From assembly GCA_958296165.1 (NCBI GenBank), contig OY282447.1, positions 4,005,154-4,069,153 of the forward strand: a DNA stretch of 64,000 bases. The letters run 5' to 3'. Both the position numbers and the translations under genes were made by a program. The stretch's first letter is position 1. Each line of letters opens with the position of its first letter. Shown in pieces: positions 2,213 to 39,949 of the stretch. Under the pieces are notes generated by a model. That model was given only the letters and a program-made list of their open reading frames with translations. It was not told where the DNA came from and did no database searches. This DNA comes from an uncultured Pseudomonadales bacterium. GTDB lineage: Bacteria > Pseudomonadota > Gammaproteobacteria > Pseudomonadales > Azotimanducaceae.

Positions 2213-5200
2213 GGGTCCTCCGAAGTCCAGTCTTCCAGTTCGTCGCTCTGCTCGGCCGCATTCCGGTAGCCGATCCGGTATCGAAGTGCGACTTCCTCGT
2301 CGATAGGCACTTCGTCACGTCGCGGTGGTTCGACACCTGCTTCGTCGCCGCCATTTGGGATCCTCGCCCGCTGCAAAACCGTCCTAGCCGCGGCGAGAGC
2401 GGATGAAGGCAGCCAGTGGCGGCGAGCGGAGGGCTTGACGACCAACACGTCTCCTTCGGGCGTGATATCGACTTCTTTGCGACCGCCAAGCGTCTGAGCC
2501 AACGAGCCGTCGAAGCGCGTTTCCATCTGCTCGATGACATCTTCCACTGCGCCGGATGCGTTCGACGCGCCAATGGCCTCGACGATTGGCGGTTGCCGCT
2601 TATCGTCCAACCAGAAACGAATCGCTCGCAGTGGGTGCGTGGCTGCGGTCTGCCAGATCTCGGCGCACATGTGAACCGTACCGTCGCTCGGTAGCCACGG
2701 TTCAACGGCTGACAGAAAGGTTCGGGCGTATTCGGCAAGCAGGTCCCAGGACGCTGGCACCGTGGAGGCTTTCCATCCGTCCTCCCACTGCCAGCTGGCA
2801 CGGAAGACGCCGTCCCTCACGACTTGCCTCTCCTCGTCGTCCAGTTCGTAGAGATCGAAAACCGCCTCGTCGAGCTGTTGCCATTGGGCCTCGGTTGGCG
2901 TCTCGGCTACGAAGGACGTGGCGAGCGCAAGCACCTTGCGTCCGACGTAGGAATCAACCGCCCACGCCAAGTCCGGTACGGGCATCGACACGACATCCTC
3001 CTGAAGCAGTCTGCGCTTGTCGATGCCGAACGTTGAGCCGGCCATGATGAAGTACCACGACGCAACCGCGGAACTTAGGATGCCGGCGAGCAGATGTCCT
3101 ACCGGTGCCTTGTCTTTCGGCAACGACGCGCCGTAGAACGCGTTTGTGAAGACGGCGTCCTGTTCGAGGACGGCCACGACAGCACGAGGCCCCCTGCTGC
3201 CGTTGTGCAAGTATTCTTTAACAATCAGCAGCGGTGCGTTGTAGATCGCCCGTTTGCGTGAACGATGGGCTGTCGATGCACGGAACCACGGAAGTTCGCC
3301 TTGTGGTGCGAATGGGCGAAGACTGTCGCGGAGTAGCGGCCTGCCACTCAGGGAACCCTCGCTGGGCGTCCCACTGCGCCCCAAAGTCAGTCCCACGCTG
3401 AACTTGGCGTTCATGCTCTGCAGGTGAAAGGACAGCGGCTCTCGCGTGTTGCACAGACGGTCCAGAAGCATCATGTCGTCGTAGCCGCCGAAGCAGGCAG
3501 CCTTCAACAAACCACCGTTGCGCTTCCAGCTAGCCGTGTGCAGCGTCGCCACGTCGCCCGGCGTGATGTCGAATGTGTGGCCACGCGATCCAGACGGTGA
3601 CCGGTGCGCTTGAACCAACTTCAGGTGGTTGTCGAGCTGCCCCTTGTCGTGCCCTGTCAACAAAGCGACGACCGGCGCGTTCGCAGGTCGGAAAAGCCAA
3701 GACGAACAGCTGGAAAGATTCACCAGCATCGCGGGTCCCAAAGCGCCGACGATGTTTTGCGCTGCGACTTTGCCGTCGTGACGACTGAAGAACGGCGTTG
3801 CCTTGAGAACCATGCCGAACCTGCTGCCGGCGTGGGCGAACCGTAGCGCCTGCTCCGCGAACACAAGGCTGCGATCCCTAGGCGGCTGTGGGGTGGAAGG
3901 TTTCGGCATCTGGCTGCGATCACGATTCTCCGTGAACGGCGGATTGCCGACGATCAAATCGAAACCACCCCTAGTGGGCTTGCGAGGCGCAGCCTTGGCA
4001 ACTGGCGCAATGTGAACATCGTGGGCGTCGCCAACTAGCAGCGTGCGGCCGACAATCGGCCTGAATCTCATCCCTCGACCGCCAGACGGATCTTGGTCAA
4101 GCTCCAAGGCAGCGAGGTAAAGACTGAACGCGGCCACCCGTATCGCCGCAGGGCTGATGTCCACGCCATGCACCTGCTCGTAGAGCGCCTCGCGAATCAT
4201 CGCCCGCGCCGGCTCGCCCTGTCCCGCTTTGGCGCGCACCAGTCGCCGCAGCGCCTCTACGAGGAAGACCCCGGATCCGCAAGTGATGTCCAGCACCGTC
4301 TCGTCGCCGGTCAGATCGGCCATGATTTGGTCCAAGATGAGCGAGACCGCCGCAAGAGGCGTGTAGTAGACACCGGACTTCCTAGCCTTGCCGCCCGGTT
4401 TCGAACTGTCCGCCGAGTGTACGAACTGCTCGTAGATCGAGCTGATGAGTTCCACCGGGATTAGGTCGAAACGATAGGGGAACAGGGACGTCTGGCCGGT
4501 CTGCAGATTCACGCCATCAAGGAAATCGGCCACCAGCGCCAAGTGCCGGACGGGGGGAACCTTGACGGCGGACGGGAACATGTCGCCGTTGAATCGGCCC
4601 ACTAGCCAATCGAACAGCTTGGTTGCCGACGGGGAACTGCGCAGCGCTTGCTGGAGTGTTTCGCAGTCCATCTGCCGGAATAGCTGGTCCGGGATGATCT
4701 GGCGGTCCGCTAGATACTTGGCGAAGATCGAACGGCCGATCAACCCTTGTGCTGCGTCTACATCAAGACCAGCAGAAAGCAACGCGCTTTCGAGCGCTGC
4801 CACGTCCTGAAGAAGGCGTTTGTCGACGGTATTGTTTCTCTTTACGCGCGGTTCATTGATCCAGAAGCGGCCTGTTTCCATCGACAGGCGACCGGCCATA
4901 GCATTGAGTTCGGGAAGGCCCTTCGTGCTTGAAGGAGAATCGAGTGGATGGTCGTGCTCGAAGACGGCCAGCAGGCTGGAAGTTGCGGTCTTCGGCCCCT
5001 CGGGCAACGCGAAGCCGTTGTACACCTCGGTTTTGCCAGGCCCAATAAGCCAGAGCAGCGGAACCGTGGCCTCGTTCCACACTTCCTGCTGCCAAGTGGA
5101 GATTTCGTCCTTTGAGGGATTGACCGCGTACTTGAAGTAGACGCCCAGGTTCTCTCGGCGCCAGCAAACGTCCGGCTGGAACGACCCGCGCCGAGTTGGC

Positions 5201-11714: not shown

Positions 11715-12971
11715 ATGACTGATAGAGCGTCCACCGATCCAAGCGCCCGCCGCTCGCTGCCGATCGCGCTCGTGGCAATAGCGGCATTCGCCATTGGCGG
11801 CGAAGGCGGCGAAGAGACGCAGCGCGAGGCGAACGACACGACGGCGCCCTCGTTGACCGCGCCAGCGCCGGCCGGCGACGAGGCGCCGTCCGCCGAGTTC
11901 ATGGCAGAGGTGTATGCCGTATCGGATTACGGCGTGCGGCTCTACGACGAGCGCCGCTACATGGAAGCGGTGCCGTATCTTCTGGCCGTAGCACAATACG
12001 GCTTCAAGCTGGCGCAAGCGTCGCTCGGCGACATCTATCTGCACGGTCGCGGCGGCGTGGAGCGCGATCTGCAAGCGGGCCTCGGCTGGCTAGGCGCCGC
12101 GGCCGAGCCGCGTACGTTGAGCCGGATCGAGAGCTACTACCAACAAGTGCTAGCGCAGCTGCCGGCCGAACAGGCGAGCCTGGCGCGGCACTTGGCAGCG
12201 CGGTATCGGGCCGAGTTCGGCGCAGCCGCGCGTGGCGTCGCTTGCGAGGTGTTCGGCAGCGTGGTGGAAGACCTGCGCTGCCGCTTCGTAGACGATCGGG
12301 AGTTCGAGTCTGCAATGACAAGCGAGCCGGAGGTCGTCTACGCCGATGGCGAATACGTCGAGGAGATGGTCGTCACCGCGCCCATCGTCACCGTCCCGGC
12401 GCCGGACTTCGGCCGCATGCCTTCTGGCGAGTTCATCTCACAGGTGTACGACGCGGTCAATCGCGGCAGCGATCTGTACCGGCAGAAGCGCTACAAGGAG
12501 GCGCTGCCCTATCTGCTCGTCGCCGCACGGCGCGGCTTCAAGTGGGCACAGGCGTCGGTGGGCGACATCTACCTGCATGGGCGCGGCGGCGTGCCGGCGG
12601 ATCTGGAGGCCGGGATAGGGTGGCTGGGCGTGGCCGCGCAGCAGCGCACCACCAACTCCATCGTGCAGTTCTACAAGACCAGCAGAGGGCTCTTGCCGGA
12701 GCGGTTCACCGATGCGGCCGTCGCGGAAATCGTCGGCGACTACCGCACGCAGTACGGCCACGAGAAGCATCGAGTGGCGTGCCGGTTCGATGTCGACGAA
12801 GGCCGCAGCTTCAGCCTGCGCCTAAAGAGCCTGCGCTGCCACTTCATCGACGAAGCCACGCAATGCCGAGACATCTCTATCGACGACAGCGATTTGGGTG
12901 GCGAGGTGCAATCGCGCTGGACGTGCCGGCCGCTAAGCGGCACGCGCGGCATCGACATGCGGCGCAACTAG
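11715..12971 (+). CDS. Sel1-like repeat protein with internal duplication, N-terminal membrane anchor
   Basis: About 418 residues from ATG 11715; the open frame extends upstream to 11583 but without a plausible start. A hydrophobic stretch (LPIALVAIAAFAIGG) near residue 15 suggests a membrane anchor or signal. Two halves of roughly 150 residues are clear duplicates: YDERRYMEAVPYLL...LAQASLGDIYLHGRGG and YRQKRYKEALPYLL...WAQASVGDIYLHGRGG, each followed by a WLG(A/V)AA segment, an FY/YY helix and a cysteine-containing tail (RGVACEVF, HRVACRFD). The YLHGRGGV..DL.AG..WL pattern is the Sel1/TPR-like repeat used for protein-protein contacts. Likely periplasmic or membrane associated; function unknown. 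Confidence 0.7.
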   Translation: MTDRASTDPSARRSLPIALVAIAAFAIGGEGGEETQREANDTTAPSLTAPAPAGDEAPSAEFMAEVYAVSDYGVRLYDERRYMEAVPYLLAVAQYGFKLAQASLGDIYLHGRGGVERDLQAGLGWLGAAAEPRTLSRIESYYQQVLAQLPAEQASLARHLAARYRAEFGAAARGVACEVFGSVVEDLRCRFVDDREFESAMTSEPEVVYADGEYVEEMVVTAPIVTVPAPDFGRMPSGEFISQVYDAVNRGSDLYRQKRYKEALPYLLVAARRGFKWAQASVGDIYLHGRGGVPADLEAGIGWLGVAAQQRTTNSIVQFYKTSRGLLPERFTDAAVAEIVGDYRTQYGHEKHRVACRFDVDEGRSFSLRLKSLRCHFIDEATQCRDISIDDSDLGGEVQSRWTCRPLSGTRGIDMRRN

Positions 12972-13035: not shown

Positions 13036-14661
13036 CTACCGAGCCAACAGCACGGTCAGGCGCGGCTGCTCGGTGGCGGCGCGACGATGCAGCAGGATGT
13101 CTTGTTTGCCGTCGTCGTTCATATCCGTTAGGTACACGTTGCGTTCGTTGTTCGGGACGGTGACGGCGAGCGTCGTCGGTTGTCGCGCGAACAGGCGCCC
13201 GGACCGGTTGCCGGCGAATACGGCGAGTTCGTGACGGCTCTTGCCTCGAATCAGATCCACGTGCCCGTCGCCATTGACGTCGCCGAGCAACACAGGGGCA
13301 AAGAACACGTCCTTGTTGAGTGGCCGGATGGCCGGTCGGATCTTATGTACTGCGGTCGGCTGATCGGGATACGCGTCGTTCTCCATGCGGTAGAACTCCA
13401 GATTCATGGTGATGGAACTGCCGGCCACGGCACGGATGATCTTGGTAACGCCCATGTTGACGTTGCCGATCATCATGTCGCTGTCGCCGTCGCTGTCGAA
13501 GTCCTGCACGACGAGCCAAGAGTAGCCGGCTGGCGAGAGTCCGCCAGCCCAGCCCTTCGATTGAGCTGCGGTGCTCGGTTGTGAAGCGAACACGGTGGCC
13601 GCGCCTTTGCGAGCGCCGAAGTGTGCTTGGTAGCGGCTGCGCAGCCGTATCAGGCTGCGTCCGCGCAGGGTATGGGTGAGCAAGTCGGCTACGCCGTCGC
13701 CGTTGAGGTCGCGCACCAGCCGCAACACGGTGTTCGTGGTGCGTCGCCGCAGCCCGACCATCAGCGCGAATGCGCTTGTGTCGCCGAAGCCAAAGACGAG
13801 CGAATAGACGCCATCGGAATCGAAGGGTGCGCCGGCGGGGACGGATTGCGCTTCGGCGTCGAAGCCGCCCTTCACGTTCTGGCGATGCACGTCGAAGTGG
13901 CCGCCGTTCCAGAACGCGAGGTCTTGGCGACCGTCGTGGTCGTAGTCGAGTGCGTGAACGCGGCTCATGTACCAAGGGATCGTGGTCGGCGAGAGACCCG
14001 CTGCGCCGTAGCTGTGGCTGTCGCCGAAAGCGGTCTGGTCGCGGAAGGGCTCTGGCGGGCCGAGCAGGACGGGTGCGGCGAACGAGCCGTCCTGCCTCTG
14101 CACGGCGATCTGAAAGCCGTCGAGATGCGGCACGACCAAATCGTCGAGACCGTCGCCGTTGACGTCACGCGTGATGTCCACCGCCGCGACCTCTCCTTCG
14201 ACTGCACGCAGGTGGTGCGTTCGGATTGGTGCCAGCGGACGCTCGACGAGCGCGTCTGGGTCGAACCAGTGGATGCCTTCGCTGTTCACGATGACCAGCC
14301 GATCGCGCCCGCCGATCCTAGCCACATCCGCAAACGCGACATCGGCGCGGAGCGTTGCATCTAGGGCCTGCGCCCACGCGCCGTCGCCATCGAACGCATG
14401 GATTTGCAGACGGCGTTCCCCGCTTCCGTCCGTGTGCAGCACGGCGATGTCGGCGAGAGCCCCGCCGAGCAGGAAGCCGGTGAACACCGTCTCTTGCTTG
14501 CTGGCGGTGGTGGCAACCGCGTATTGGTCGAACGCCGGCGGGTCGCCGTTGGCGGCGACCGCGCAGCCCAGGACTACCCAGCAAGCATGTAGCGAACCAA
14601 TGCCCCAGCGGCATCTTGCCGCGCGTCGGCTTGGCGAGTGGCTAGGGGCGCATGTTCTCAT
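13036..14661 (-). CDS. secreted FG-GAP/VCBS repeat protein
   Basis: 541 residues with an N-terminal signal-like segment (LHACWVVLGCAVAANG near residues 24-39) followed by calcium-binding-type blades: DVNGDGLDDLVVP, DYDHDGRQDLAFW, DLNGDGVADLLTH, DFDSDGDSDMMIG, DVNGDGHVDLIRG and DMNDDGKQDILLH. These DxDxDG..D loops define FG-GAP/VCBS repeats forming a beta propeller like integrin alpha chains. Such proteins are exported and often bind surfaces or sugars, but no catalytic domain is attached here. It is convergent with the Sel1-like gene and divergent from the molybdenum hydroxylase genes. Confidence 0.85.
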   Translation of the reverse strand: MRTCAPSHSPSRRAARCRWGIGSLHACWVVLGCAVAANGDPPAFDQYAVATTASKQETVFTGFLLGGALADIAVLHTDGSGERRLQIHAFDGDGAWAQALDATLRADVAFADVARIGGRDRLVIVNSEGIHWFDPDALVERPLAPIRTHHLRAVEGEVAAVDITRDVNGDGLDDLVVPHLDGFQIAVQRQDGSFAAPVLLGPPEPFRDQTAFGDSHSYGAAGLSPTTIPWYMSRVHALDYDHDGRQDLAFWNGGHFDVHRQNVKGGFDAEAQSVPAGAPFDSDGVYSLVFGFGDTSAFALMVGLRRRTTNTVLRLVRDLNGDGVADLLTHTLRGRSLIRLRSRYQAHFGARKGAATVFASQPSTAAQSKGWAGGLSPAGYSWLVVQDFDSDGDSDMMIGNVNMGVTKIIRAVAGSSITMNLEFYRMENDAYPDQPTAVHKIRPAIRPLNKDVFFAPVLLGDVNGDGHVDLIRGKSRHELAVFAGNRSGRLFARQPTTLAVTVPNNERNVYLTDMNDDGKQDILLHRRAATEQPRLTVLLAR

Positions 14662-22418: not shown

Positions 22419-24488
22419 CAGGGCCATCCTGAAGTTAGCAGCAAGTCATTGAGGCGGCAGGGGAATCAAGCCGTACTGGACATTCTCGGTTGGATGGATC
22501 AGGATGGGCGCATCGTGGCGGTGGGCGAGGCGTCGTGGGAAGGTCAAGCGCGGGCGGGGTGAAGCTGTCGGAAGTGTCGGTGCGTCCGGTGGTCGGCGGC
22601 GCGGAGCGGGCGGAATGGGACCGTCTGATGGAGAGTCACCACTATCTGGGGTTTCGGTGTCTGTTCGGGGGCGGGGTTCGGCACGTCGCGGCGACGGCGG
22701 ACGGGCGCTGGCTGGCGCTGGTCGGCTGGCAGTCCGGGGCGTTCAAGGTGAAGGCGCGCGACGCCTGGATCGGCTGGACGCCGGAGCAGCAGTTCCGGCG
22801 TCTGCGGCTGGTGGCGAACAACACGCGCTTTCTGATTCTGCCGGGCGCGCGGGCGCCGCAGCTGGCGTCGCGGGTGCTGTCGCTGTCGCTGCGGCGTCTG
22901 TCGTCGGACATGGAGGCGGCGCTGGGGCATCCGGCGCTGGTGGCGGAGACGTTCGTGGATCCGTCGCGCTTCGAGGGGACGTGCTACCGGGCGTCGAACT
23001 GGGTCGAGCTGGGCGAGACGCGGGGCTACGCGAGGTCGCGCGGCGAGTGGGTGGCGCACGGGCAGCCGAAGCGGGTGTTCGCGTATCCGCTGCGGCGCGG
23101 CGCGCGGGAGGCGCTGCGCGGGCTGGACGAGCCGGCGCCGCTGCCGGCGTCGTCGCCGCCCGAGCCGCCGTCGGACGCGCGGCTGCGCAGCCTGTGCGAC
23201 TTTCTGCGCCAGGCGCCGGAGCATCGCGGGCGGCGCGGCCTGCGGCATTCGCTGGCGACGGTGCTGGCGCTGTCCGTGGCCGCGAAGCTGGCGGGGGCGC
23301 AGGGGCCGACGGCGATCGCCGAGTTCGCGGCGCGGCTGACGCAGCGCCAGCTGGGGGCGGTTCGGTCGTTCCGCAGCCCGGCCACCGGACGGCTCGTGGC
23401 GCCGTCCAAGTCCTGCGTCCACCGCGTGCTGTCGGAACTCGACCCCGACGCCCTGGACGACGCCGCGCGGCGCTTCGCCGCGGCCGGGCGGCCCGCCGGC
23501 GGCGCGCTCGCGGTGGACGGCAAGTCGGCGCCGCTGAACCGTCCCGGCGGCCCCGACCCGGACCGCATGTTCGTCGCCGCGGTCGAGCACGGCAGCGGCG
23601 TGGCGCCGGCCAGGTCGCCTCCGACAGCGCCGGCGGCGAGATCGAAGGCGCCCGCCGGCTGCTGCGCGGGATCGGCGTCGCCGGCCGCGTCGTGACCCTC
23701 GACGCGCTGCATGGCTGCCCGAACACCGCCCGGCTGATCGCCGACGGCGGCGGCGACTGCGTCGTGCCGATCAAGGACAACCACCCGACGCTGCTCGACG
23801 ACCTGCGCCTCTTCGACTGGAACGGCGCCCCGTCCCGCCGCGCCGTCGACAAGGGCCACGGACGGCTCGAGGAACGCGTCTGCGCCGTCGTGCCCCTCGA
23901 CGGCGTGCCCGACGACGTCGCGGCGCTGCCCGGGCGCCGCCAGGCGTTCCGCATCGTTCGGCGCCGCACCGTCCTCAAGTCCGGCAGAACCTCCAGGGAA
24001 ACCGTCCACGGCCTGACCTCGCTCGCCCCGAAGCGTGCTGGCGCTTCCGAGATCCTCGCCCTCAACCGCGGACACTGGGAGATCGAGAACCGCGTCCACT
24101 ACGTCCGCGACTTCTCCTTCGACGAGGATCGCTCCCGCATCCGCGCCGGCAGGCTGCCCCGCAACCTCGCCTGCCTCTCCAACGCCGCCATCTCGATCGT
24201 CCGCATGCGCGGGCGCTTCCGGCGCCAGCCCCAGGCGCACCGCCACTACGCCGCCCGGCAGGCCGACGCCCTGCGCGAAGTGCTCGCCCCGGCCTTCTGA
24301 CCCCGCCCCGCCGAAGAACGGCGGCACGCGCCGAGCCGCCCCGCGGCCGCCTCCCGGCCAGCGGCAGAAAAAGAGCCCCGGCGACTCTGAAAACCGCCCT
24401 CCCGTCCGACTCCGAGCCAGTCGAATCCCCATCCCGGCAACCAGCCCGACCCGAACGCGCGTCAAGCGCTAACTTCGGGATGGCCCTG
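22419..24488 (+). mobile_element. ISAs1-family insertion sequence (2070 bp) with terminal inverted repeats
   Basis: The left end CAGGGCCATCCTGAAGTTAG (22419-22438) and the right end CTAACTTCGGGATGGCCCTG (24469-24488) are 20-bp inverted repeats with one mismatch. The element is flanked by an exact 10-bp target duplication, CTGCCCCATC, at 22409-22418 and 24489-24498. Terminal sequence and duplication length suit the ISAs1 family. It sits inside mazF in the same orientation and carries one frameshifted transposase gene that also has an N-terminal DruA-type domain. Confidence 0.9.
22559..24300 (+). pseudogene. ISAs1-type transposase with N-terminal DUF4338 (DruA-like) domain, frameshifted
   Basis: From GTG 22559 one frame runs to about 23605. 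Residues 5-190 resemble DUF4338/DruA (MESHHYLGFRCLFGGGVRHV, WIGWTPEQQFRRL, NNTRFLILPG, ETFVDPSRFEGTCYRASNW). Next comes the ISAs1 H-repeat region (GRRGLRHSLATVLALSVAA ... LAVDGKSAPLN). A shift near 23604-23610 moves the DDE part to a second frame: AGQVASDSAGGEIEGARRLL, TLDALHGC, VPIKDNHPTLLDDLRLF and NRGHWEIENRVHYVRDFSF. Both halves belong to one roughly 580-residue enzyme. Programmed frameshifting is not known to me for ISAs1, so I read it as an inactivating indel or a consensus error. Confidence 0.8.
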
Positions 24489-29568: not shown

Positions 29569-30366
29569 TTGGCCTATTTCGACGACGTCGCTCAGTACAA
29601 TCAGGATCGCTGGGAGGAGCTCGCCGCTCGGGGCATGCAATGCACCAAGCCCATGTTGGACTTGGACGCCGAGGCTTCGCTTGCGCTGGTGGACCCCCAC
29701 GGGGTCGCCGGAAATGTCGCAGGCAAGGACGTGCTGTGTCTGGCCGGCGCGGGAGGGCAGCAGTCGGCCGCCTTTGGGATACTAGGCGCGACGGTGACCG
29801 TGCTCGACCTGACGGAGACGCAGTTGAAGAGAGACCACGAAACGGCGGCGCACTACGGCTTGGAGGTGCGCACGGTCCAAGGCGACATGAGGGATCTGTC
29901 GGCATTCGACGACGGCGCATTCGACCTCGTGCATCATGCCTACTCCATCAACTTCGTCCCCGACCCCATGCCGGTCTTCCGGGAGGTCGTCCGGGTGCTG
30001 CGCCCCGGAGGGCTGTACATGCTGAGGTGCGCCAACCCCTTCGCCCAAGATCTGTACTCCCGTTGGAACGGGGATGGCTACGTCCTGAAGGATCGCTACG
30101 AGGACGGCGAACTCAACGAAGCCCCTTGGGAGTTCCAAGGATTCGACGGGAACCGCGAGAAGGTCGTAGGAGCGAGGACGTTCCGACATACGCTGAGCAC
30201 GCTGCTGAACGGCCTCGCGGAGATGCGGCTGGTATTGCTCGGCCTGTGGGAGGGTGCCGCCCTGTGGGATGACGCCGGCGCCAAGGCCCCCGAGCCGGGC
30301 TCCTGGGAGCACTTCGTGTCGGTGGCCCCGCCCTACCAGACCATATGGACGCGGCTGGATTCCTAA
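29569..30366 (+). CDS. class I SAM-dependent methyltransferase
   Basis: 265 residues starting at TTG 29569, supported by AGGACTAGGAGGATAGG just upstream. Motif I is VLCLAGAGGQQSAAFGILGA, followed by VTVLDLTETQL (acidic residue of motif II), VQGDMRDLSAFDDGAFDLVH (motifs III-IV) and VRVLRPGGLYMLR (post-motif). This is a UbiE/type-11 small-molecule methyltransferase of the cytosol. The target is not deducible. It lies convergent with the HATPase-PrnB fusion gene. Confidence 0.85.
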   Translation: MAYFDDVAQYNQDRWEELAARGMQCTKPMLDLDAEASLALVDPHGVAGNVAGKDVLCLAGAGGQQSAAFGILGATVTVLDLTETQLKRDHETAAHYGLEVRTVQGDMRDLSAFDDGAFDLVHHAYSINFVPDPMPVFREVVRVLRPGGLYMLRCANPFAQDLYSRWNGDGYVLKDRYEDGELNEAPWEFQGFDGNREKVVGARTFRHTLSTLLNGLAEMRLVLLGLWEGAALWDDAGAKAPEPGSWEHFVSVAPPYQTIWTRLDS

Positions 30367-30413
30367 ACGCGGGCCGCGCATCGCCCACTTCGTAGCGAAC
30401 GCCGACACCGAGC

Positions 30414-30439
30414 GGGGGACGCCACAGGCAGCGTCTCCC
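30414..30439. terminator. possible bidirectional terminator between convergent genes
   Basis: GGGGGACGC (30414-30422) and GCGTCTCCC (30431-30439) form a 9-bp stem with one G-T pair and an 8-nt loop, between the stops of the methyltransferase and the HATPase fusion gene. No T-tract follows on either strand, so it is only a candidate. Confidence 0.35.
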
Positions 30440-30450
30440 TCACCCATCGG

Positions 30451-31995
30451 TCAGCGAACGCGGTTGATTAAGGCATCCAATTCGTCAATCGAACCGCGAG
30501 TGAATTTCGTGAGCGTTTCCAGCATCTCCGTATCGTAGCCGCCGCTTCCTGTGCTGCCTGAAGGGCGCGAGGCGAAGCTCGCCCGCGCCAAGCGGAGGTG
30601 CGGCACGCGAAACTTGTACAGCTGTTGAAACAACTCGCGCAGGCTAGCCAGGCTGGCGCGGTCGGCGAGCCGGCCGTCCTTGGCCAATTCCAGGAGCGAG
30701 GGATAGTCGCGCAGGCGCTCTGCGATGCGCCGAAGTTCCTGCGGCAAGGGTTGGCTGGTCAGCGCGAAATACGCTTCATAGTCGCTCCGATCCGTCAGTT
30801 CGGCGGGGAACATCAGCCGGTCCACGATCTGAACGCCAAGGTGGGCGGCGCTCGGCCCGTCGTAGCGCCTTCCCGCTATCTCCAGATCGGGAAAGCACGG
30901 TGCGAGATGCGCTGAGAACACCGAGGGCGACATGGTGCGTTTCACTCTGACCAGTGCGGAAACCAACGATTCCAACGCCATCGCCGCCTGCGTCAGACAC
31001 TCGGCGACTTCGGATCTCGCCGCGGCCAAGGCGCTGCCGAGACCCAAGGCGAGGTGCCCGATACACAGCGGCAGACAGCGTGCGGCTTTTGCTATCGAGA
31101 GGATGAATATGCGCTCCTCCGGCAGCGTCGTGAACGTCCGCATGCGTGGTCCCGACGGATTGCGCGGACCGTACGAGTAGAAGGTGTCTCGAGGCACCTC
31201 TAGCGCGGTCTCGTGCAGCGCCAGCAGCGCTTGCGCCACACTGTCCGTTTCACACGCATGCACTGCGTGACGCTCGAGCACAGAGGCGAGGAAGCCGAGG
31301 TCGCGCAGCCCCGCCAGCGCTTCCTCTCGGCTCCAGCGCCGCTTGAGCGCCCGCTCGGCGGCGTCTCGGCATGTTTGTTCAGCTTCGTCGAGGTTCGGGG
31401 CCGCCTGCCGCAGCGACGTGACAGAGGCATCCAGGCTGAGCGGGTCGAGCGCGGCGACCCGCAAGTCCCGCTCCGTTATCCCGAAGAGAGCCTGTATCTC
31501 CTCAGAATCCAGGCTGAACGGGCATGCGCTCGATGCGCTGGCGACGCGGAGGGCGCTAGGCCGAGACGGCGCAAATGTCTTCGGAGCCTGCAGGATCAGC
31601 GTGGTGTGATTGCGGCCATCTCGTCGCCCGTAGGCGATCTCGTCCATGAACGATTTCACGAAATGAACGCCCAACCCCTTGGTCTCGCGTACCTCCAGAC
31701 CCGATTCCAAGTCTGGGTCGGGCGCGTCGGTAGACGGATCGAACGCAACTCCCTCGTCCACTAGGACGACTTCAAGCGCTCCGTCCCGCTCGCTCAGGGT
31801 GACGAGGATCTCGTGCTCGTCGTTGTCCCGATAGCCGTAGTTGATGACGTTGGAAAGCAACTCGTCAAGCGCAAGGTTGACGCTCGTGATCCATTTCGGC
31901 GGCCAACCGCGGGCCTCGCCGTGCGCCTCAACCGCCTTGGCGCTGCGGACGACCTCCGAAAGGTCATTCTTCAGGGTCAGCGCGAGAGTCGTCAT
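30451..31995 (-). CDS. fusion of RsbW-like HATPase domain and PrnB/indoleamine-dioxygenase-like domain
   Basis: 514 residues from ATG 31995. Residues 1-140 form a GHKL ATPase domain of the anti-sigma-factor kinase type: N-box ELLSNVINYGY (E45, N49), G1 box DEGVAFDP (80-87) and G2 box ETKGLGVHFVK (104-114). Residues about 240-514 resemble the PrnB/IDO heme superfamily: a helical ERHAVHACETDSVAQALLAL region, CLPLCIGHLALGLG, RRYDGPSAAHLGVQIVDRL, then FRVPHLRLARASF with candidate heme-ligand H466, and GSTGSGGYDTEML (480-491), which recalls the GTGGT motif of indoleamine dioxygenase. No sigma factor, anti-anti-sigma or PrnA/C/D gene is nearby. Domain 2 assignment rests on motif memory and is less certain than domain 1. 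A start at 32016 is possible. Confidence 0.7.
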   Translation of the reverse strand: MTTLALTLKNDLSEVVRSAKAVEAHGEARGWPPKWITSVNLALDELLSNVINYGYRDNDEHEILVTLSERDGALEVVLVDEGVAFDPSTDAPDPDLESGLEVRETKGLGVHFVKSFMDEIAYGRRDGRNHTTLILQAPKTFAPSRPSALRVASASSACPFSLDSEEIQALFGITERDLRVAALDPLSLDASVTSLRQAAPNLDEAEQTCRDAAERALKRRWSREEALAGLRDLGFLASVLERHAVHACETDSVAQALLALHETALEVPRDTFYSYGPRNPSGPRMRTFTTLPEERIFILSIAKAARCLPLCIGHLALGLGSALAAARSEVAECLTQAAMALESLVSALVRVKRTMSPSVFSAHLAPCFPDLEIAGRRYDGPSAAHLGVQIVDRLMFPAELTDRSDYEAYFALTSQPLPQELRRIAERLRDYPSLLELAKDGRLADRASLASLRELFQQLYKFRVPHLRLARASFASRPSGSTGSGGYDTEMLETLTKFTRGSIDELDALINRVR

Positions 31996-32072
31996 GCCAG
32001 CTTTCTTCTGCCGCACCCTCTATACCATACCTTGAACTGGTTCAGTAGATATGGCACTGGGGGCTAGGCGGG

Positions 32073-32486: not shown

Positions 32487-35273
32487 GTGGTCGAGATCAC
32501 GAATGCGCGGGTGCGTGCGCTGCTAATGGGCATCGCCGCGCTGTCTTGCGCCGCGCTGGCTGGTGCCGTAGCGGCAGAGGAAGCCGATGCCGGGCAGGAG
32601 GACGAAACCGAGGCCATCACGGAGGAAATGGTGGTCTACGGCATTCGCGGCAGCATGGAGCAATCGTTGCAGCGCAAGCGGAACGCCGATCACTTCGTAG
32701 ACGCCATCACGGCCGAAGACATCGGCGCGTTCCCCGATCAGAACCTCGCCGAATCATTGCAGCGCATCAGCGGCGTCGCCATTGACCGCAAGTCCGGGGA
32801 GGGCGCCTTCGTGAGCGTGCGCGGGTTGGGTCCTCAGTACGTGCAAACGACCATCGGCGGGCGCGTCGCGGCATCCAACGTCGACCCCGGCCAACACGAT
32901 GGCAGAGGCCAGGCGAACAGAGGCACGCGGGTGGTCGGCTTTCATTCGTTCCAATCCGGGCTGGTGCAGGCCGTGGAAGTACACAAGTCGCCACGCGCCG
33001 ATCACGTCGAGGGCGGGCTCGGCGGCTTCATCGACGTACAGACGCGCCGGCCGCTCGAAATGGGGAGTCGCCATCTTGCCGCGTCCTTGGACGGCCATGT
33101 GAACGAGCTGGCGGACGACGCAGCGCCGGGAGTTTTCGCTCTCTACAGCGATGCGCTCAGCGATACGCTCGGCGTGATGGTGTCCGCGCAGTGGGACAAC
33201 CGAGTCGTTCGATCGGACTCGCTGCATCATTATTCCTACGTTCCGAGCCCGCGCACGTACACCGTCAATGGGCAGCAGTTGACCGGCTATCACCCGCGCC
33301 AGATCCTAGGCGAGTTGCACCAGACGGACCGCGACCGCCTGAACGTCTCTTCTTCCGTGCAGTGGCGTCCTTCGGATCGCATCGATGCAACGTTCGATAT
33401 GTTGTACACCGACGTGTCGAGCGACGAGAAGGACTACTGGCGCGACTTCCGCATCCAGCAGCGACTCGCCAACAACATCACCGCCGCTACGCTCACGAAC
33501 GACAACGGCACAGGCGTCTTCACGTCGATTTCCACCTCAGGCGCCGGCGCGTTCATACAACAAGGCTCAGAGCAGGTTGATACCGAAGCGCTCACGTTCG
33601 GTGCCAATTTGCAGATCCAGGCGACCGACGACCTCGCCCTGAATGTCGACTTGTCGGTTTCCAATACCGATTCGCCGAGCATGAATCGAGACTATCTGAT
33701 GCGCAACACGAACACGCAGATGTCGTACGGCAAGTTCGGCCCGGGCGGCATTCCGTCGCTGACTTCCTCTTCCCCTCTGAATGACCCGGCTTGGTTTCAT
33801 GTCGTAAAGCACTCCATTCAGAGCCATCTGGTAGACGACCAGATCGTCCAATTCAGAGTGGACGGCACCTTCGATGTGGGCGGGAGTTGGCTCGACACGA
33901 TTCAAGTCGGCTTCCGGTCCGCCAAGCAGGAACGCGGCGACAGATTCAGATACTTGAACAGCAGGGCGTTTATCGGTTCGCCGATCACCGAGTTCGGCGG
34001 CGACGATCCATTCCCGGCCGAAGCGGATTTCCTAAGCGGTCTTGGCAACGAGTTCCCGTCGAACATCGTCAATCCGAACTTGGCGGTCATTCAGCGGACG
34101 TTCGTCACCCGGCCCGATGAGATACGCAGTGGCCGTGGTTTCAACACGGGTACGGAGAAGTCCCTTGAGGGATACGTGCAAGGCAGCTTCAACGAAGATC
34201 TCAATCACGAGGACGACTCCGTCGCCGTATATGCCATGGCCACATTCGCCGGCGAAATGGGCAATACGCCGTATTCGGGCAATTTCGGCGTGCGCTATGT
34301 GCAGAACGACACCGGCTCGATAGGGCAAATATCGACGCCTACCGGCTTCGACATCTCAGACCCCACCCAGCCTGAACTGCTGCTTTCGCCACCTGAGTTC
34401 CTGAACGTAGCGCACAGCTATTCGGAGCTGTTGCCTTCGCTCAATCTGAGATTCGATCCGCGCGAAGACGTCGTCGTGCGGGCGTCGGTGGCAAAGGTGC
34501 TGAGTCGGCCAGCGTATGGGGATTTGAACCCTAGATTTACCGGTGGCGGCATCGGCCGTACGATACGGGCCGGCAATGGCGAACTTGATCCAACGATCGC
34601 AACGCAAGTGGATGTCGCGCTGGAGTGGTACTTCGCCGATTACTCGATTGCCTCGGTCGGAGTCTTCATCAAGGACATCGAGGCGTTCGTTCAGCTTGAT
34701 CTCGATCAAGTCCGGTTCGACAACGTGGTCGATCCCGACACCAACCTGCCGGTCGTCTTGACTGCCCGCAGACCGCTGAACAGTGGCCAATCGCGCTTGA
34801 CGGGGATTGAACTGGCGTTTCAGAGGACGTTCGCGGATCTGCTGCCCGCTCCGTTCGATGGTCTTGGCGTGATTGCCAACTGGACGTATATCGATTCCGG
34901 CTCGGACTTCCGCAACGAGTCGACCGGCGCCACCTACAGCATTCCTGGTCTGTCCGAGAACACCGTCAATTTAACGGCGTTCTACGAGAAAGGCCCGTGG
35001 CGCGGGCGTGTGTCCTACAACCTGCGCAGCGACTTCCTGGATCAGATCGCGGACGGCCAAGGCCACCCGTACTTCGTCGACGAGTACGATCAGATCGATG
35101 CATCGTTTGGCTACATGTTGAACGAAAGGGTGACGTTCAGCGTGGAAGCGATCAATCTCAGAGACGAGAACGTGTACTACTACAATCGGCTGGGAACAGG
35201 CACCCAAGAGCATTTCTCAAGCGCGATCAATGCCGGCCGCCGATTTCAATTCGGCGTGCGTGTGAAGCTGTAA
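32487..35273 (+). CDS. TonB-dependent outer membrane receptor
   Basis: 928 residues from GTG 32487, behind AGGGGAGGCTCGCC. A signal peptide (LLMGIAALSCAALAGAVAAE) is followed by a TonB-box region (EEMVVYGIRGS) and the plug domain: NADHFVDAITAEDIGAFPDQ, NLAESLQRISGVAIDR, GEGAFVSVRGLG. The remaining 700 residues are an alternating-strand barrel ending in the aromatic-rich FGVRVKL typical of outer-membrane insertion. This spelling of the plug matches TonB receptors for complex carbohydrates or similar ligands in gammaproteobacteria. Ligand unknown, since no glycoside hydrolase or siderophore genes lie alongside. Confidence 0.92.
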   Translation: MVEITNARVRALLMGIAALSCAALAGAVAAEEADAGQEDETEAITEEMVVYGIRGSMEQSLQRKRNADHFVDAITAEDIGAFPDQNLAESLQRISGVAIDRKSGEGAFVSVRGLGPQYVQTTIGGRVAASNVDPGQHDGRGQANRGTRVVGFHSFQSGLVQAVEVHKSPRADHVEGGLGGFIDVQTRRPLEMGSRHLAASLDGHVNELADDAAPGVFALYSDALSDTLGVMVSAQWDNRVVRSDSLHHYSYVPSPRTYTVNGQQLTGYHPRQILGELHQTDRDRLNVSSSVQWRPSDRIDATFDMLYTDVSSDEKDYWRDFRIQQRLANNITAATLTNDNGTGVFTSISTSGAGAFIQQGSEQVDTEALTFGANLQIQATDDLALNVDLSVSNTDSPSMNRDYLMRNTNTQMSYGKFGPGGIPSLTSSSPLNDPAWFHVVKHSIQSHLVDDQIVQFRVDGTFDVGGSWLDTIQVGFRSAKQERGDRFRYLNSRAFIGSPITEFGGDDPFPAEADFLSGLGNEFPSNIVNPNLAVIQRTFVTRPDEIRSGRGFNTGTEKSLEGYVQGSFNEDLNHEDDSVAVYAMATFAGEMGNTPYSGNFGVRYVQNDTGSIGQISTPTGFDISDPTQPELLLSPPEFLNVAHSYSELLPSLNLRFDPREDVVVRASVAKVLSRPAYGDLNPRFTGGGIGRTIRAGNGELDPTIATQVDVALEWYFADYSIASVGVFIKDIEAFVQLDLDQVRFDNVVDPDTNLPVVLTARRPLNSGQSRLTGIELAFQRTFADLLPAPFDGLGVIANWTYIDSGSDFRNESTGATYSIPGLSENTVNLTAFYEKGPWRGRVSYNLRSDFLDQIADGQGHPYFVDEYDQIDASFGYMLNERVTFSVEAINLRDENVYYYNRLGTGTQEHFSSAINAGRRFQFGVRVKL

Positions 35274-35375: not shown

Positions 35376-37415
35376 TCAAGCCGCTACGGTCTGCAACTCC
35401 ACGAAGCGCCGGTAGTGGCCGTCCGGCAACGCCATCAACTCCGCGTGGCTGCCGGTCTCGCGCAAGCTGCCGTCTTCAAGGAAGACGATCTTGTCGGCGC
35501 TGGCAATGGTGGAAAGACGATGCGCGATGACGATCACCAGCCGGTCGCGGGCCGCCTCCTTCAGCGAGCGCACCAGGAACTTCTCCGTTTCCGGATCGAG
35601 CGCGGAAGTCGGTTCGTCGAGAATCAGCACGCGCGAGTCGCGCAAGAGGCCGCGCGCGATCGCGATGCGCTGCTTCTGGCCCACCGAGAGCTTGCTCATG
35701 CTGGTGCCGAGCCTGGTGTCGTAGCCTTGCGGCAGGGCGGCGATGAAGTCGTGCGCGCCGGCGACGTGAGCAACCCGTTCGACCTCTGCTTGGCTTGCGT
35801 CCGGTTTGCCGAAGCGGATGTTGTCGCCGACGGTGTCCGAGAAGAGCTGGGTTTCCTGGAACACATACGTCACCTGGCTGCGCACGCTTGCCAAGGTCGC
35901 ATCCTTGACGTCCACGCCGTCGATCAGCACTTCGCCCTCCGTGGCGACTCGATAACGGGGAATGAGGCTGGCAAGCGACGTCTTGCCCGCGCCGGTGGGG
36001 CCGGCGATGGCGACGATCTGACCGACCTCTGCGCTCATGTTGACGCCGGCCAGGGCGCGCCGCCCGTCTGGATAGACCAGCCCGGCGTCGCGGAACACCA
36101 CGCCGCGCTCGATGGGCGGCAGGGTCTTGCTGCCTAGATCTTCCTCGCCGGGCGTGTCGGTCAGCGCGAACACGCGGCGCAGCCCGGCGGCGTGGTATTG
36201 GAGATGCACCCATGTGAGCCCCATGCTGCGCGCCGGCCCTCGAATCCATTTGAAGTAGAACAGCAGCGCACCGTAGTCGCCTGGCGACAGCACGCCGTCG
36301 ATCACTTGCGTGGAGGCGTACAGCACCGAGCCCATGACGATCATGTAGTAGCCGACTTCAACGAGCTGGCCTACCGTGATGCCCACCCACACATAGCCTC
36401 GGTAGCGCTTGAAGGACTCGCCGCTATCGTCGGCGAAACGTCCTCTCTCCTTGCGATTCCCACCCAGGCTCTGCACTGCGAGCACGTTGTCCATGCCCTC
36501 CTCGATGGTGCTGGTGGCAATGGCGCCGGCGGCCCGCGACGCCTGCGCACGGCGGCGCGACATGCGCGCGAACCCCACGGACAGGACGAAGAACAACGGG
36601 AACACCGCCGCGGTGAGCAGGATGAAGCCGGGCGAGTACGGGTAGGCGCTCATGAACGTGCCGATGGCCATCATCATCACGGCCATCGCCATGGGTATGC
36701 CCCACCAGATGCCGTAGAAGCCGTGGTTGATGGATGGCGCGTCGTACATCACGCGGTAGACGCTGTCGCCGATGCGCTGATCCTCGAGGGTCGTCATCGG
36801 CAGCGCCTTGATGCGCTCGAACAATCGTGCCCGCAGGTAGTGGTTCACCGATTGGGTCAGGCGGGTGTTGATCTTGAAATCGATGTAGCCGTAGATCCCG
36901 CCTAGGTAGCTGTGAGCGCCGTGCAGGCTGTTCTCGACGCGAGTCGCCGTGTCGTGGCCCTCCTCGAGGTTCCCCTCGGTCTCGTCCCTGGCGTTGTCGC
37001 CTTGCGCGTAGCCGCCGATCAGCAATATCAAGACGGCGAAAACCGCAAGCACCGCCAGCAGCACTTCGAGCGGCGATGCGCCGGCCAGCGCGGTGAGAAA
37101 CGGTCGCCAGATGGGCGGATAGCCGGTGGCCTCGGCGATGGGCCGGCCGAGCACCACATGGTCGATGATGATCTTCGTCGGCCACGGGATGATCGTCACC
37201 GGCACCGTGATGGCGAAGAACATGAGCGCGGCCTTGGTGAGGAAGCGGCCCAGGAAATGGCGCACCAGGAACATCCCGCGCGCAGCGATCTCCAGGGTCT
37301 CCGAGAAGGTGAGGTCCGTGTTCGTATCGATCAGGCTGGCGCGCCGATCCAGCGCCGCCTCGCGCTGACGCAGCTTCGAGCTGGGCCTCTCGGCCGGCGT
37401 GGCGGCTTGCGTCAC
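35376..37415 (-). CDS. ABC exporter half-transporter (second gene of pair)
   Basis: 679 residues from a GTG at 37415 that overlaps the upstream ABC gene by 4 nt (GTGA), so the longer frame to 37649 is rejected. The ABC membrane region is about residues 50-400 (WPTKIIIDHVVLGRP, LEDQRIGDSVYRVMYDAPSI, TSTIEEGMDNVLAVQSLGGN). The nucleotide-binding domain has Walker A GPTGAGKTS, signature KLSVGQKQRIAIARG and Walker B VLILDEPTSALD. An unusual polar loop (GDNARDETEGNLEEGHDTAT) lies between two N-terminal helices. With its partner it should form a heterodimeric exporter in the inner membrane. Substrate unknown. Confidence 0.9.
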   Translation of the reverse strand: MTQAATPAERPSSKLRQREAALDRRASLIDTNTDLTFSETLEIAARGMFLVRHFLGRFLTKAALMFFAITVPVTIIPWPTKIIIDHVVLGRPIAEATGYPPIWRPFLTALAGASPLEVLLAVLAVFAVLILLIGGYAQGDNARDETEGNLEEGHDTATRVENSLHGAHSYLGGIYGYIDFKINTRLTQSVNHYLRARLFERIKALPMTTLEDQRIGDSVYRVMYDAPSINHGFYGIWWGIPMAMAVMMMAIGTFMSAYPYSPGFILLTAAVFPLFFVLSVGFARMSRRRAQASRAAGAIATSTIEEGMDNVLAVQSLGGNRKERGRFADDSGESFKRYRGYVWVGITVGQLVEVGYYMIVMGSVLYASTQVIDGVLSPGDYGALLFYFKWIRGPARSMGLTWVHLQYHAAGLRRVFALTDTPGEEDLGSKTLPPIERGVVFRDAGLVYPDGRRALAGVNMSAEVGQIVAIAGPTGAGKTSLASLIPRYRVATEGEVLIDGVDVKDATLASVRSQVTYVFQETQLFSDTVGDNIRFGKPDASQAEVERVAHVAGAHDFIAALPQGYDTRLGTSMSKLSVGQKQRIAIARGLLRDSRVLILDEPTSALDPETEKFLVRSLKEAARDRLVIVIAHRLSTIASADKIVFLEDGSLRETGSHAELMALPDGHYRRFVELQTVAA

Positions 37416-39949
37416 GAGTCGCTGCCCGTCGCGCGGGAAAGATGCGATTCCGCCTCGACGAATGCCCGGTAGCGACCGCCGGGCGTGGCCATGAGCTGGT
37501 CGTGGTCGCCGCTCTCGATGATCCTGCCGTCGTCCAGATAGAGGATGTGATCGGCGCGGCGGATGGTGGAGATGCGGTGCGTGATGAGAAAGATGGCGCG
37601 CTTGTCCGTTTGCTGGGCGCCGCTCGCGCTCGCTGCGCCGCTTGCCCACTGCGACAGATTCGTCATCACCCGGTTTTCCGTCTCCGCGTCGAGCGCGGCG
37701 GTTGGTTCGTCGAGTATCAGCAGGGGCGTGTTCCGCACCACGGCTCGGGCGATCGACAGGCGTTGGCGCTGGCCCGTGGAAATCCGCCCGCCGCGGTCGC
37801 CGAGCACGGTGTCGAGGCCCGCCGGCAAGCCCGCCACATAGTCCTCCATGCAGGCGATGCGGATGGCTTCGCGGACTTGGCTCTCGTCCGCGTCGGCGGC
37901 GGCGTAGCGGATGTTCTCGCGCACAGACAACGCGAACAGCACGTTCTCCTGCAGTGCGATGGCGATGTTTGCCCTGAGAGATTCCACGGTGTAGGCGCGC
38001 AGATCGACGCCGTCGATCGAGACGGCGCCTGCATCGGGGTCGTACAGGCGCAGCAGAAGGCCCATCAGCGTGCTCTTGCCGGAACCGGTGGGGCCGACGA
38101 TGGCCGTGATGGTGCCGCGCTCGGCGACGAAGCTGACGCCATTGAGCACCGGCCGATCCGGCTGGTAGGCGAAGGAGACGTTATCGAAGCGCACCTCCCG
38201 TCGAATGCGCGTCAGCGGCACGGCGTCGTCGGCGTCGACGACGTCGGGCTCCAAGTCCAGGATGTCGAAGACGCGCTTCAAGCCCATGGCGATGTCCTGG
38301 GCGGACAGCCAATTCCACATGGCGCCGCGTATGCGGGCGGCTGCGCCTTGAAACTCGTCCCGCGACCACTGGTGCGCGGCGAGGTTCCAAATCACGAAAC
38401 TCAAGCCCACGAAGGCGATCAGTTCAACGGAGAACGTCGGCACGCCCAGATGCGCCCAGCGCGCGATCAGGTACTCGCTGGCGAGCATGGCGACCGCGAC
38501 GATGCTGAACGTGACGATCCCCACCAAGGCCATGAGCACCCGCACGCGATAGGCGGCGTTGAACAGGATCACCGAGTCTTCCTCGAGCCGCCGCTGAATG
38601 CGGTCCTCCGCGCCGTATGCCTTGATCAGCCGGATGGCGCTGAAGGACTCCTGCAAGCGGGAAGTCACATCGGAGGTCGCCGCCCGCGCCACCAGCGACT
38701 TGGTGCGCATGCGCGGCATGGCCCACTTCGCATAGATCAAGGTCGGGGCTACCACCGAGAGCATGATGAGACCGAGCCAAGGGCTTAAGAGCGACAGCAG
38801 GAAAACGGCCACGGCGTAGCTGAAGATCGTCGTCGAGATGCCGAGCAGACGGTCGATCACGGCGGTGACCTGCGCGCTGTCCTGATAGATGCGGAAGATC
38901 GAGTCGCCGGTGCGGTGGTCGCTGTGGTAGCTGAGCGACAGCGTGTGCCAGCGCTCCACCAGCGCGGTGCGCAAGTCCTGGTTGATGCGCTGCAATATCC
39001 AGATGTTGTACCAGCCGGCCCCGGTGCCGTACATCACCCACGAGTATTCGCCGCCGCCCACCATAACGCGCAGCGGCGTCTGGCCGACCAGCAGCGCGAC
39101 GCTGATGCCAACGTAGACCCACTGGTAGTAGTAGCGCTCCTCGACGCTCAAGGTGCGTTCGAGGATGCCGCGCGCCAAGTCGTGCTGGCCGATGGCGTTG
39201 GCCAGCACCGGAATGACCGGATCAGCTTGCAGAATCGACTGGAACAGGAGGTCCGCCAGCACGAGCCCGGTCGCCAAGCCGATCAGCTTTTGCAGATACA
39301 CCATGAAGAAGAAGTACACGAGGTGCGTGGATGCGCGCACGCGGGCGTCGATGCGGCCGTTCTCCAAGCGCAGCTGCACCAGCCAGCCGAGCGCACAGGC
39401 GCCGGTGACCCACGCGATCCACTTGCTGGCGGCGAAGTCCGGCATGGCGGCGGGGGCGACGACGACGTTGCCGTATGCGGCGAGCAGCAGCGCCGCCATC
39501 GTGGCGCCGACGCGCGGCCGTGGGCTGCTGCTGAAAGCGATGATCCAGCTCCACGCCGTCATGCCGGCGACGCAGGCGTAGACGGCGAGCGGATAGAGGA
39601 CGTGGCGTTCCGAGTTGGCTGGGAAGACGTCGTAGTAGACCAGCCCGCCGACGGCGAGCGCGGTGACTAGGTACGGGAGATAGGCGTAGGAGTAGCCGCC
39701 GCCATCGGCGCCGTGGGCTGGGATCCGATCGCTGCCGGTCGTCGCTATCCAGTGGCCGAAGAACTGCGGCTTGATGTAAGGCCACGAGCGCAGGAAGAGC
39801 TTGATGATCGACACCAGGCTGTCCTGGTCGTCCTTGATGTCCAGGTCGCGGCCGGCGGGAATGGGGCCGTCGCCCATGATCGGCAGCGCCCGCGCCAGTG
39901 CGCGCCGTTCGGCGTACTCCTGCTCGGCGCTCTTTCCGTTGTCCGGCAT
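37412..39949 (-). CDS. ABC exporter half-transporter with extended N-terminal membrane region
   Basis: 845 residues. Before the standard exporter domain there is about 180 residues with extra hydrophobic helices (YLPYLVTALAVGGLVYYDVF, YPLAVYACVAGMTAWSWIIAF, MAALLLAAYGNVVVAPAAM, STHLVYFFFMVYLQKLIG), roughly four more membrane spans than a normal half-transporter. The exporter core contains LVERWHTLSLSYHSDHRTGD. The nucleotide-binding domain has Walker A GPTGSGKST, signature ISTGQRQRLSIARA and Walker B LLILDEPTAALD. It overlaps the downstream partner gene by 4 nt and follows a small membrane protein gene, giving a three-gene operon. Confidence 0.9.
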   Translation of the reverse strand: MPDNGKSAEQEYAERRALARALPIMGDGPIPAGRDLDIKDDQDSLVSIIKLFLRSWPYIKPQFFGHWIATTGSDRIPAHGADGGGYSYAYLPYLVTALAVGGLVYYDVFPANSERHVLYPLAVYACVAGMTAWSWIIAFSSSPRPRVGATMAALLLAAYGNVVVAPAAMPDFAASKWIAWVTGACALGWLVQLRLENGRIDARVRASTHLVYFFFMVYLQKLIGLATGLVLADLLFQSILQADPVIPVLANAIGQHDLARGILERTLSVEERYYYQWVYVGISVALLVGQTPLRVMVGGGEYSWVMYGTGAGWYNIWILQRINQDLRTALVERWHTLSLSYHSDHRTGDSIFRIYQDSAQVTAVIDRLLGISTTIFSYAVAVFLLSLLSPWLGLIMLSVVAPTLIYAKWAMPRMRTKSLVARAATSDVTSRLQESFSAIRLIKAYGAEDRIQRRLEEDSVILFNAAYRVRVLMALVGIVTFSIVAVAMLASEYLIARWAHLGVPTFSVELIAFVGLSFVIWNLAAHQWSRDEFQGAAARIRGAMWNWLSAQDIAMGLKRVFDILDLEPDVVDADDAVPLTRIRREVRFDNVSFAYQPDRPVLNGVSFVAERGTITAIVGPTGSGKSTLMGLLLRLYDPDAGAVSIDGVDLRAYTVESLRANIAIALQENVLFALSVRENIRYAAADADESQVREAIRIACMEDYVAGLPAGLDTVLGDRGGRISTGQRQRLSIARAVVRNTPLLILDEPTAALDAETENRVMTNLSQWASGAASASGAQQTDKRAIFLITHRISTIRRADHILYLDDGRIIESGDHDQLMATPGGRYRAFVEAESHLSRATGSDS

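Follow-up and report, generated by a model that had tools for sequence, protein, structure and literature searches.

An RsbW-like kinase domain joined to a PrnB-like domain in two gammaproteobacterial genomes, a possible heme- or indole-gated switch

In PMC11791213, members of the IDO/PrnB superfamily are described only as enzymes, and it is stated there that purified PrnB binds tryptophan with the amine on the heme, without turnover in vitro. The same paper assigns to Ser319 of FbPrnB the role of holding the substrate carboxylate. That heme can control a kinase pathway of a related kind has a precedent in the O2-sensing stressosome of Vibrio (PMC4976288, PMC9237108). No fusion of a PrnB or IDO domain with a kinase was found in the literature searched, among the matches listed; subscription papers lay mostly outside its scope.

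The DNA analysed here, called the window, is a stretch of 64,000 nucleotides from an uncultured Pseudomonadales bacterium (contig OY282447.1, positions 4,005,154 to 4,069,153), whose genome is one contig. An earlier note, made from the letters alone, had reported an uninterrupted 514-residue frame joining an RsbW-like ATPase domain to a PrnB/IDO-like domain. An open-frame check agreed with this, and the gene was located on the minus strand, which the earlier note had left unstated. The motifs were also where it had placed them, namely N49, DEGVAF (80-85), ETKGLG (104-109), FRVPHL (H466), and GSTGSGGYD (480-488). The GC contents at the three codon positions are 0.67, 0.48, and 0.77 (computed for the frame from 32016). 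The parts of the gene and its surroundings are listed in Table 1.

Table 1. Features of the fusion gene and of the block that carries it, in window coordinates. A3 is the alignment of nine kinase rows; L051 is the OY282378.1 locus carrying the second copy of the fusion gene.
Feature	Coordinates	Strand	Basis
Fusion gene, 514 aa: HATPase_c_2 kinase-like domain, linker, and PrnB-like domain	30451..31995	-	Single open frame; ATG at 31995, stop ending at 30451, 514 codons, 0 internal stops
HATPase_c_2 (RsbW/SpoIIAB-like) domain, residues 10-134	31594..31968	-	Pfam E=1e-22
N box, E45 to N49	31849..31863	-	E45 and N49 identical in 9/9 rows of A3
G1 box, D80-E81-G82	31750..31758	-	D80 and G82 identical in 9/9 rows
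G2 box, G107-L108-G109	31669..31677	-	Identical in 9/9 rows of A3
Linker, residues 146-174	31474..31560	-	Alignment and frame offset; 4-bp length difference from the OY282378 copy (L051) located here
PrnB-fold domain, residues 179-501	30493..31461	-	phmmer to PrnB 2.8e-29; AlphaFold2 model with PrnB crystal structures as best matches
H466, predicted proximal heme ligand (FRVPH)	30598..30600	-	Aligned with FR.PH His of PfPrnB and FbPrnB
GSTGSGGYD loop, residues 480-488, with S484	30532..30558	-	Alignment to FbPrnB Ser319; low confidence in the model
Block common to the window and L051, 89.5% identical	30368..32027		Whole-window blastn search against L051
Remnant, start of the NCS2 permease gene that is next after the fusion in L051	30368..30447	-	Homology ends here

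The claim of an RsbW-like ATPase domain was borne out. Pfam HATPase_c_2 covers residues 10-134 with 81 bits against a cut-off of 27.4, and phmmer against PDB sequences matches residues 30-133 to SpoIIAB and RsbW (E=2.8e-5 to 4e-5). A profile of the nine kinase rows of A3, which are seven stand-alone kinases and both fusions, matches RsbW 6m36 with E=1.5e-11. The NCBIfam equivalog cut-offs are missed for both RsbW (33.5 vs 145 bits) and SpoIIAB (34 vs 135 bits). Judged by these cut-offs, the kinase half is not RsbW or SpoIIAB itself. E45 is aligned with the SpoIIAB Glu sited four residues ahead of its Asn. I take E45 to be the catalytic Glu, N49 to be the Mg-ligand Asn of the N box, and D80 to be the Asp of G1. 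Residue 106 is Gly in the seven stand-alone kinases, Lys in the window, and Arg in L051. Among 28 columns invariant in the seven stand-alone kinases, the window protein keeps 25, and 23 are kept by both fusions. The label "anti-sigma" in the earlier note exceeds the evidence, since five stand-alone relatives adjoin PP2C phosphatases and the genome has a stand-alone STAS protein.

For the C-terminal half too, the earlier domain call stood, by profile, sequence, and fold. Pfam PrnB (PF08933) matches residues 219-499 of the window protein with 43.2 bits against a cut-off of 27 (E=3e-11) and the L051 copy with 49.2 bits. By phmmer against PDB sequences, residues 179-501 match PrnB 9dfg (E=2.8e-29) and 2v7i (E=8.4e-26). 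Membership in IDO was rejected; Pfam IDO gives 12.2 bits for the window protein and 17.8 for the C-terminal half of L051, below the cut-off of 26. Thus, PrnB is the better label, and the nearest solved relative of the C-terminal domain is PrnB rather than IDO.

AlphaFold2 was run without templates on a 30-row alignment of PrnB relatives, and the mean pLDDT of the model is 76.2. From residue 161 on, the ten-residue blocks score 82-96 except for 191-200 (67) and 471-490 (64-67), and the GSTGSGG loop falls in the latter low-confidence stretch. The blocks of residues 1-160 score 22-77 because the kinase domain is covered by only one other alignment row, and the model says nothing firm on the kinase half or on the packing of the two halves. 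In Foldseek, PrnB chains take the first 12 of the 50 rows shown (E 1.8e-17 to 1.8e-14; target-normalized TM 0.84-0.87), and SO4414 and human IDO1 come next. Since the top matches are all PrnB chains, the model confirms the PrnB fold. The structure prediction thus gave, for the C-terminal half, the PrnB/IDO helical fold expected from the earlier note (TM up to 0.87).

H466 was placed as the putative heme ligand by alignment only. It faces the FR.PH His at chain position 313 of PfPrnB in the phmmer alignment, and its column is at least 90% conserved in structural alignment A2, which combines L051 with 27 loci drawn from the 76 of L052-L127 by clustering at 80% identity. The His at PfPrnB position 313 is presumably the proximal heme ligand. 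In the phmmer alignments, Y275 faces FbPrnB Tyr104 and S484 faces FbPrnB Ser319, where the FbPrnB residues are matched through an inferred offset of 20 between chain and paper numbering. The window protein has Ala-Ala where FbPrnB has Gly210-Gly211, and several PrnB columns that are at least 90% conserved in the 30-row alignment are changed (e.g., 274 is Ser for His and 396 is Phe for Trp). A FastTree tree was made from 27 sequences, namely those of the window, L051, and 25 PrnBs from 22 of the 77 pattern-scan loci and three of the five plasmid loci; nine DUF1864-type loci, for which the motif filter gave no sequence, were left out. The PrnB domains of the window and L051 share one branch, which is about 2.6 substitutions per site long. 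It is deep and separate, far from the 25 PrnB sequences.

Is this pairing found in other bacteria? When the family was searched with the C-terminal domain, two of 206 genomes gave a match: that of the window and one other, whose match is weak and partial (30% over about 100 residues, E=6.9e-4). In the class, the only match among 369 genomes is the window genome itself. PF08933 matches were found in 18 of 293 genomes of the order and seven of 398 genomes of the phylum (six above the cut-off), with the window genome in both sets. The open frames of the other PF08933 genomes encode 390-439 residues, apart from a single frame with 497 residues and a weak match with 57, and the kinase HMM found no match in the loci of these other genomes. 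A scan of 84,980 species genomes with a single short peptide pattern, which could miss divergent fusions, matched 445 stretches, 77 of which encode a PrnB relative. The kinase HMM was then applied to six frames of 106 loci (77 from the pattern scan, five from plasmids, and 24 from the order and phylum, the last with short flanks and therefore a local kinase check). It found two kinase-like ORFs, the window's own and that of L051. In summary, the pairing of a kinase with PrnB is rare and was found in two genomes.

The second genome, OY282378.1, is an uncultured gammaproteobacterial chromosome of 5.73 Mb. The earlier note had named an assembly join as the danger to its reading. This was rejected, since a distantly related gammaproteobacterial genome has the same pairing. 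The block shared by the two loci begins 32 bp before the start codon and ends about 80 bp into the following gene, and the rest of the window has no blastn match in L051, flanks included. The linker of L051 is 4 bp shorter, and its kinase and PrnB halves are thus in different frames. The second frame is open from 6866, and the earliest ATG, GTG, or TTG in it is a TTG (7013) that lies where the PrnB core begins. In the 25 codons that precede the aligned core, there are 10 nucleotide changes and three amino acid changes, compared with 6.5 expected (P=0.014). Since the linker evolved like a coding sequence in the fused frame, the common ancestor was most likely fused. Until the two copies split, the linker thus seems to have been translated in the fused frame. 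L051 is most likely the altered copy, or else its assembly errs at the linker.

Downstream in L051, an intact NCS2 permease gene (L051:8031-9806) overlaps the end of the PrnB frame, and about 80 bp from its start are left in the window. Several NCS2 (xanthine/uracil-type) permease paralogues exist in both genomes; those noted in the window genome (G000) are at G000:C1:2771066-2772808, 280877-282640, and 1201532-1203274. The C-terminal tail of about 150 residues of these permeases resembles a degenerate HATPase_c_2 (hhalign P=5.9e-5, probability 65%, one comparison). Around the L051 fusion there are five NHLP-like RiPP precursors (L051:1635-1979, 3623-3934, 4312-4878, 12297-12638, and 13291-13641). 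The one ORF tested, L051:3623-3934, passes the NCBIfam TIGR03793 cut-off, and the other four are look-alikes. An HMM of the five sequences found no such precursor in the window. Thus, a RiPP cluster is not the shared context of the two copies, and membership in one was rejected.

The fabF gene of the window is 78% identical to that of three of the four same-genus genomes tested and 74% identical to that of the fourth. Compared with OY282378, it is 69% identical (over aligned codons 68%, with 64% amino acid identity and a dS of 0.94 by NG86). In contrast, the dS of the fusion gene between the window and L051 is 0.15-0.22 in the two domains, and about 0.5 in the small sample of 25 linker codons. 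Since the shared block is so much less diverged than fabF, the fusion has moved horizontally. When the order of OY282378 was searched, 17 genomes came up, and the window genome was not one of them. Stand-alone kinases of the OY282378 family (17 genomes) are 54-60% identical to the N-terminal half of the fusion (51-59% by another search), compared with at most about 44% for the kinases of the window's genus. Among these 17 genomes, a PrnB domain was found in OY282378 alone. Because the closer stand-alone kinases are found there, transfer was likely from the OY282378 clade to the window genome. A viral origin was rejected, as no viral-contig relative was found with the full protein, PrnB alignment A1, or kinase alignment A3; the C-terminal domain found none in phage records, and no PHROG family matches at E<=0.001.

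A convergent methyltransferase gene (29569-30366) has its end abutting the edge of the shared block. It too looks accessory, since even the closest matches among the 15 further genomes of the genus are only 43-44% identical. A comparison through this neighbor identified no orthologous empty site in those 15 genomes. A transposase-like ORF (22504-24297; DDE_Tnp_1, 27.3 bits over part of the ORF) lies some 6 kb away from the shared block. Two successive genes for ABC exporters (ABC_membrane and ABC_tran; 35376-39949) are beside a gene for a TonB-dependent receptor (32487-35273).

It had been noted that no partner gene (STAS or sigma factor) lies alongside, and this holds for the eleven other window proteins scanned with Pfam. 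None of prnA, prnC, and prnD was found among ten window proteins scanned. In plasmid loci L047 and L048, PrnB is beside halogenases and a Rieske protein. In the OY282378 clade, a stand-alone kinase adjoins a HAMP-SpoIIE phosphatase in all five loci with genes listed (L169-L173; the L172 kinase was placed by tblastn). These phosphatase and RsbW-like kinase genes form operon-like sets in the five genomes, close to a gene for an MFS-like protein (assigned with Pfam in L169 and MFS-like only by resemblance in the others). Potential STAS and PP2C partners, not adjacent to the fusion among the scanned proteins, are present elsewhere in the window genome. There, a receiver-SpoIIE protein, a kinase, and a stand-alone STAS protein are encoded within about 6 kb, in a partner-switching set at L143:4876-11171 (G000:C1:4515875-4522170). 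This set also has a ligand-binding-protein-like ORF (identified by eye) and a sensor histidine kinase, and its STAS gene is on the opposite strand. PF01740 (STAS) matches OY282378 at one place and the window genome at three. Between the two genomes, the stand-alone STAS proteins show 59% identity and have ISSAGLR in common, which presumably contains the phospho-Ser.

I compared the two copies by neutral reshuffling of the observed changes (5000 simulations). The PrnB half has 32 amino acid changes, compared with 55.8 expected under neutrality (P<0.0002; none of the 5000 simulations gave so low a count). In the kinase half, purifying selection was undetected in a test of low power (43 nucleotide changes): 26 amino acid changes were observed and 28.3 expected (P=0.26). 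Nor do the kinase differences avoid the invariant columns, which hold three of 21, compared with 4.6 expected (P=0.28). The dN/dS between the window and L051 is 0.26 (NG86) or 0.33 (YN00) for the PrnB half, 0.59 or 0.48 for the kinase half, and 0.11 for the linker. When the 26 kinase differences were polarized with five stand-alone kinases, 11 were ancestral in L051, 10 in the window, and five unclear. Thus, neither copy looks like the sole decaying one. This lack of detectable constraint on the kinase half, next to a constrained PrnB half, is the strongest argument against reading the fusion as a sensor kinase. The idea of gating by heme is weakened, because the kinase half has no detectable purifying selection and the second copy is frame-split. 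Further points against it are the occurrence in two genomes only, the lack of a STAS, PP2C, or sigma gene beside the fusion among the proteins scanned, the strong divergence of the PrnB half with its changed near-invariant columns, and the low confidence of the N-terminal half of the model.

Even so, a heme- or indole-gated STAS kinase is the best reading of the fusion, tentative as it is and a little short of an even chance. It is preferred because a heme fold covalently joined to a switch kinase is an ordinary sensor architecture, and because the motif residues are kept in both parts and the linker was once seemingly constrained. The stand-alone kinases beside HAMP-SpoIIE phosphatases and the partner-switching set of the window genome also speak for it, as do the kept pocket residues H466, Y275, and S484. 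Heme binding, catalysis, the ligand, and the direction of control I infer. The PrnB half would bind heme via H466, and the distal pocket would take indole or a tryptophan-like ligand (or O2 or NO). The ligand or the redox state may alter how the attached kinase phosphorylates, in trans, the conserved Ser of a stand-alone STAS protein, for which G000:C1:4521760-4522062 is a candidate substrate in the window genome. A partner switch of PP2C, kinase, and STAS proteins would then receive the heme or indole status with no stressosome involved. It was probably in the OY282378 clade, with its close stand-alone kinases next to SpoIIE phosphatases, that the fusion arose before it passed to the window genome. 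That this is the first case of an IDO/PrnB heme fold used as a sensory input, on a one-polypeptide heme- or indole-gated serine kinase that feeds a STAS switch in trans and has spread as a single gene between distantly related Gammaproteobacteria, is a wider proposal that I regard as possible and rather doubtful.

The main rival is that a PrnB-like indole or tryptophan enzyme does the work and that the kinase-like domain is an oligomerization or regulatory appendage, or is en route to loss. It fits the selection result better than a sensor kinase does, as selection is detectable on the PrnB half and the linker only. Two of the five plasmid PrnB loci belong to pyrrolnitrin-type operons that also encode tryptophan halogenases and a Rieske protein, and a natural-product role is imaginable because the L051 fusion is about 2.5 kb from an NHLP-leader RiPP precursor. 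However, the surroundings of the gene in the window yielded no halogenase, Rieske protein, or NHLP-type precursor, the kinase motif residues are kept in both copies, and the tree sets the C-terminal domain well apart from its 25 PrnB sequences. I consider this rival unlikely on balance. The horizontally acquired gene may instead be a passenger, severed from its downstream neighbor and not or no longer functional here. The shared block stops about 80 bp into the next gene and leaves a permease remnant, the second copy is frame-split, only two genomes have the gene, and the kinase half is near-neutral. Yet the window frame is intact over its 514 codons and its PrnB half is clearly constrained, while a stop was acquired in 76% of the neutral simulations for the PrnB half and 37% for the kinase half; a passenger is improbable. 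That the L051 halves are in different frames might also mean that two overlapping genes, as read in L051, were joined in the window by a sequencing error. This would be very surprising, since the second L051 frame has its first common start codon only at the edge of the PrnB core, yet the 25 codons upstream of the aligned core evolved as coding in that frame, and the window is from a one-contig genome.

If the fusion is a gated STAS kinase, it would bring heme into partner switching by a route independent of a stressosome. A natural fusion of a PrnB fold with a signaling kinase would suggest that the binding of tryptophan to heme can be a signal. The fusion might thus represent a novel kind of switch under heme or indole control; two copies of its gene were found, one of them interrupted. 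The idea is directly testable, because the protein is of moderate size and a candidate substrate is named in its own genome.

The fusion shares with PrnB (monodechloroaminopyrrolnitrin synthase, PF08933, of the IDO/TDO-type heme-dependent aromatic oxygenase superfamily) the fold, the proximal-His motif, the equivalents of Tyr104 and Ser319, and the GSGG loop. In contrast to PrnB, it bears a kinase domain, has Ser instead of His at 274 among several altered near-invariant columns, is only about 23-34% identical, and has no prn genes among its scanned neighbors. With the STAS kinases RsbW and SpoIIAB, which are anti-sigma factors, it has in common the HATPase_c_2 domain, the N, G1, and G2 boxes, and the Glu before the N box. 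It differs in scoring far under their equivalog cut-offs, in being joined to a heme-fold domain, and in having no partner genes found alongside. The kinases of the HAMP-SpoIIE phosphatase operons (L169-L173), 54-60% identical to the N-terminal half of the fusion, are stand-alone proteins of about 140-154 residues without a PrnB domain. The heme-RsbR stressosome of Vibrio, as described in PMC4976288 and PMC9237108, and the present fusion would both couple a heme domain, a GHKL-type serine kinase, and STAS proteins. In Vibrio, the heme domain is a globin borne by the STAS protein RsbR, with RsbT as a separate kinase, whereas here a fold of the IDO/PrnB type is on the kinase itself.
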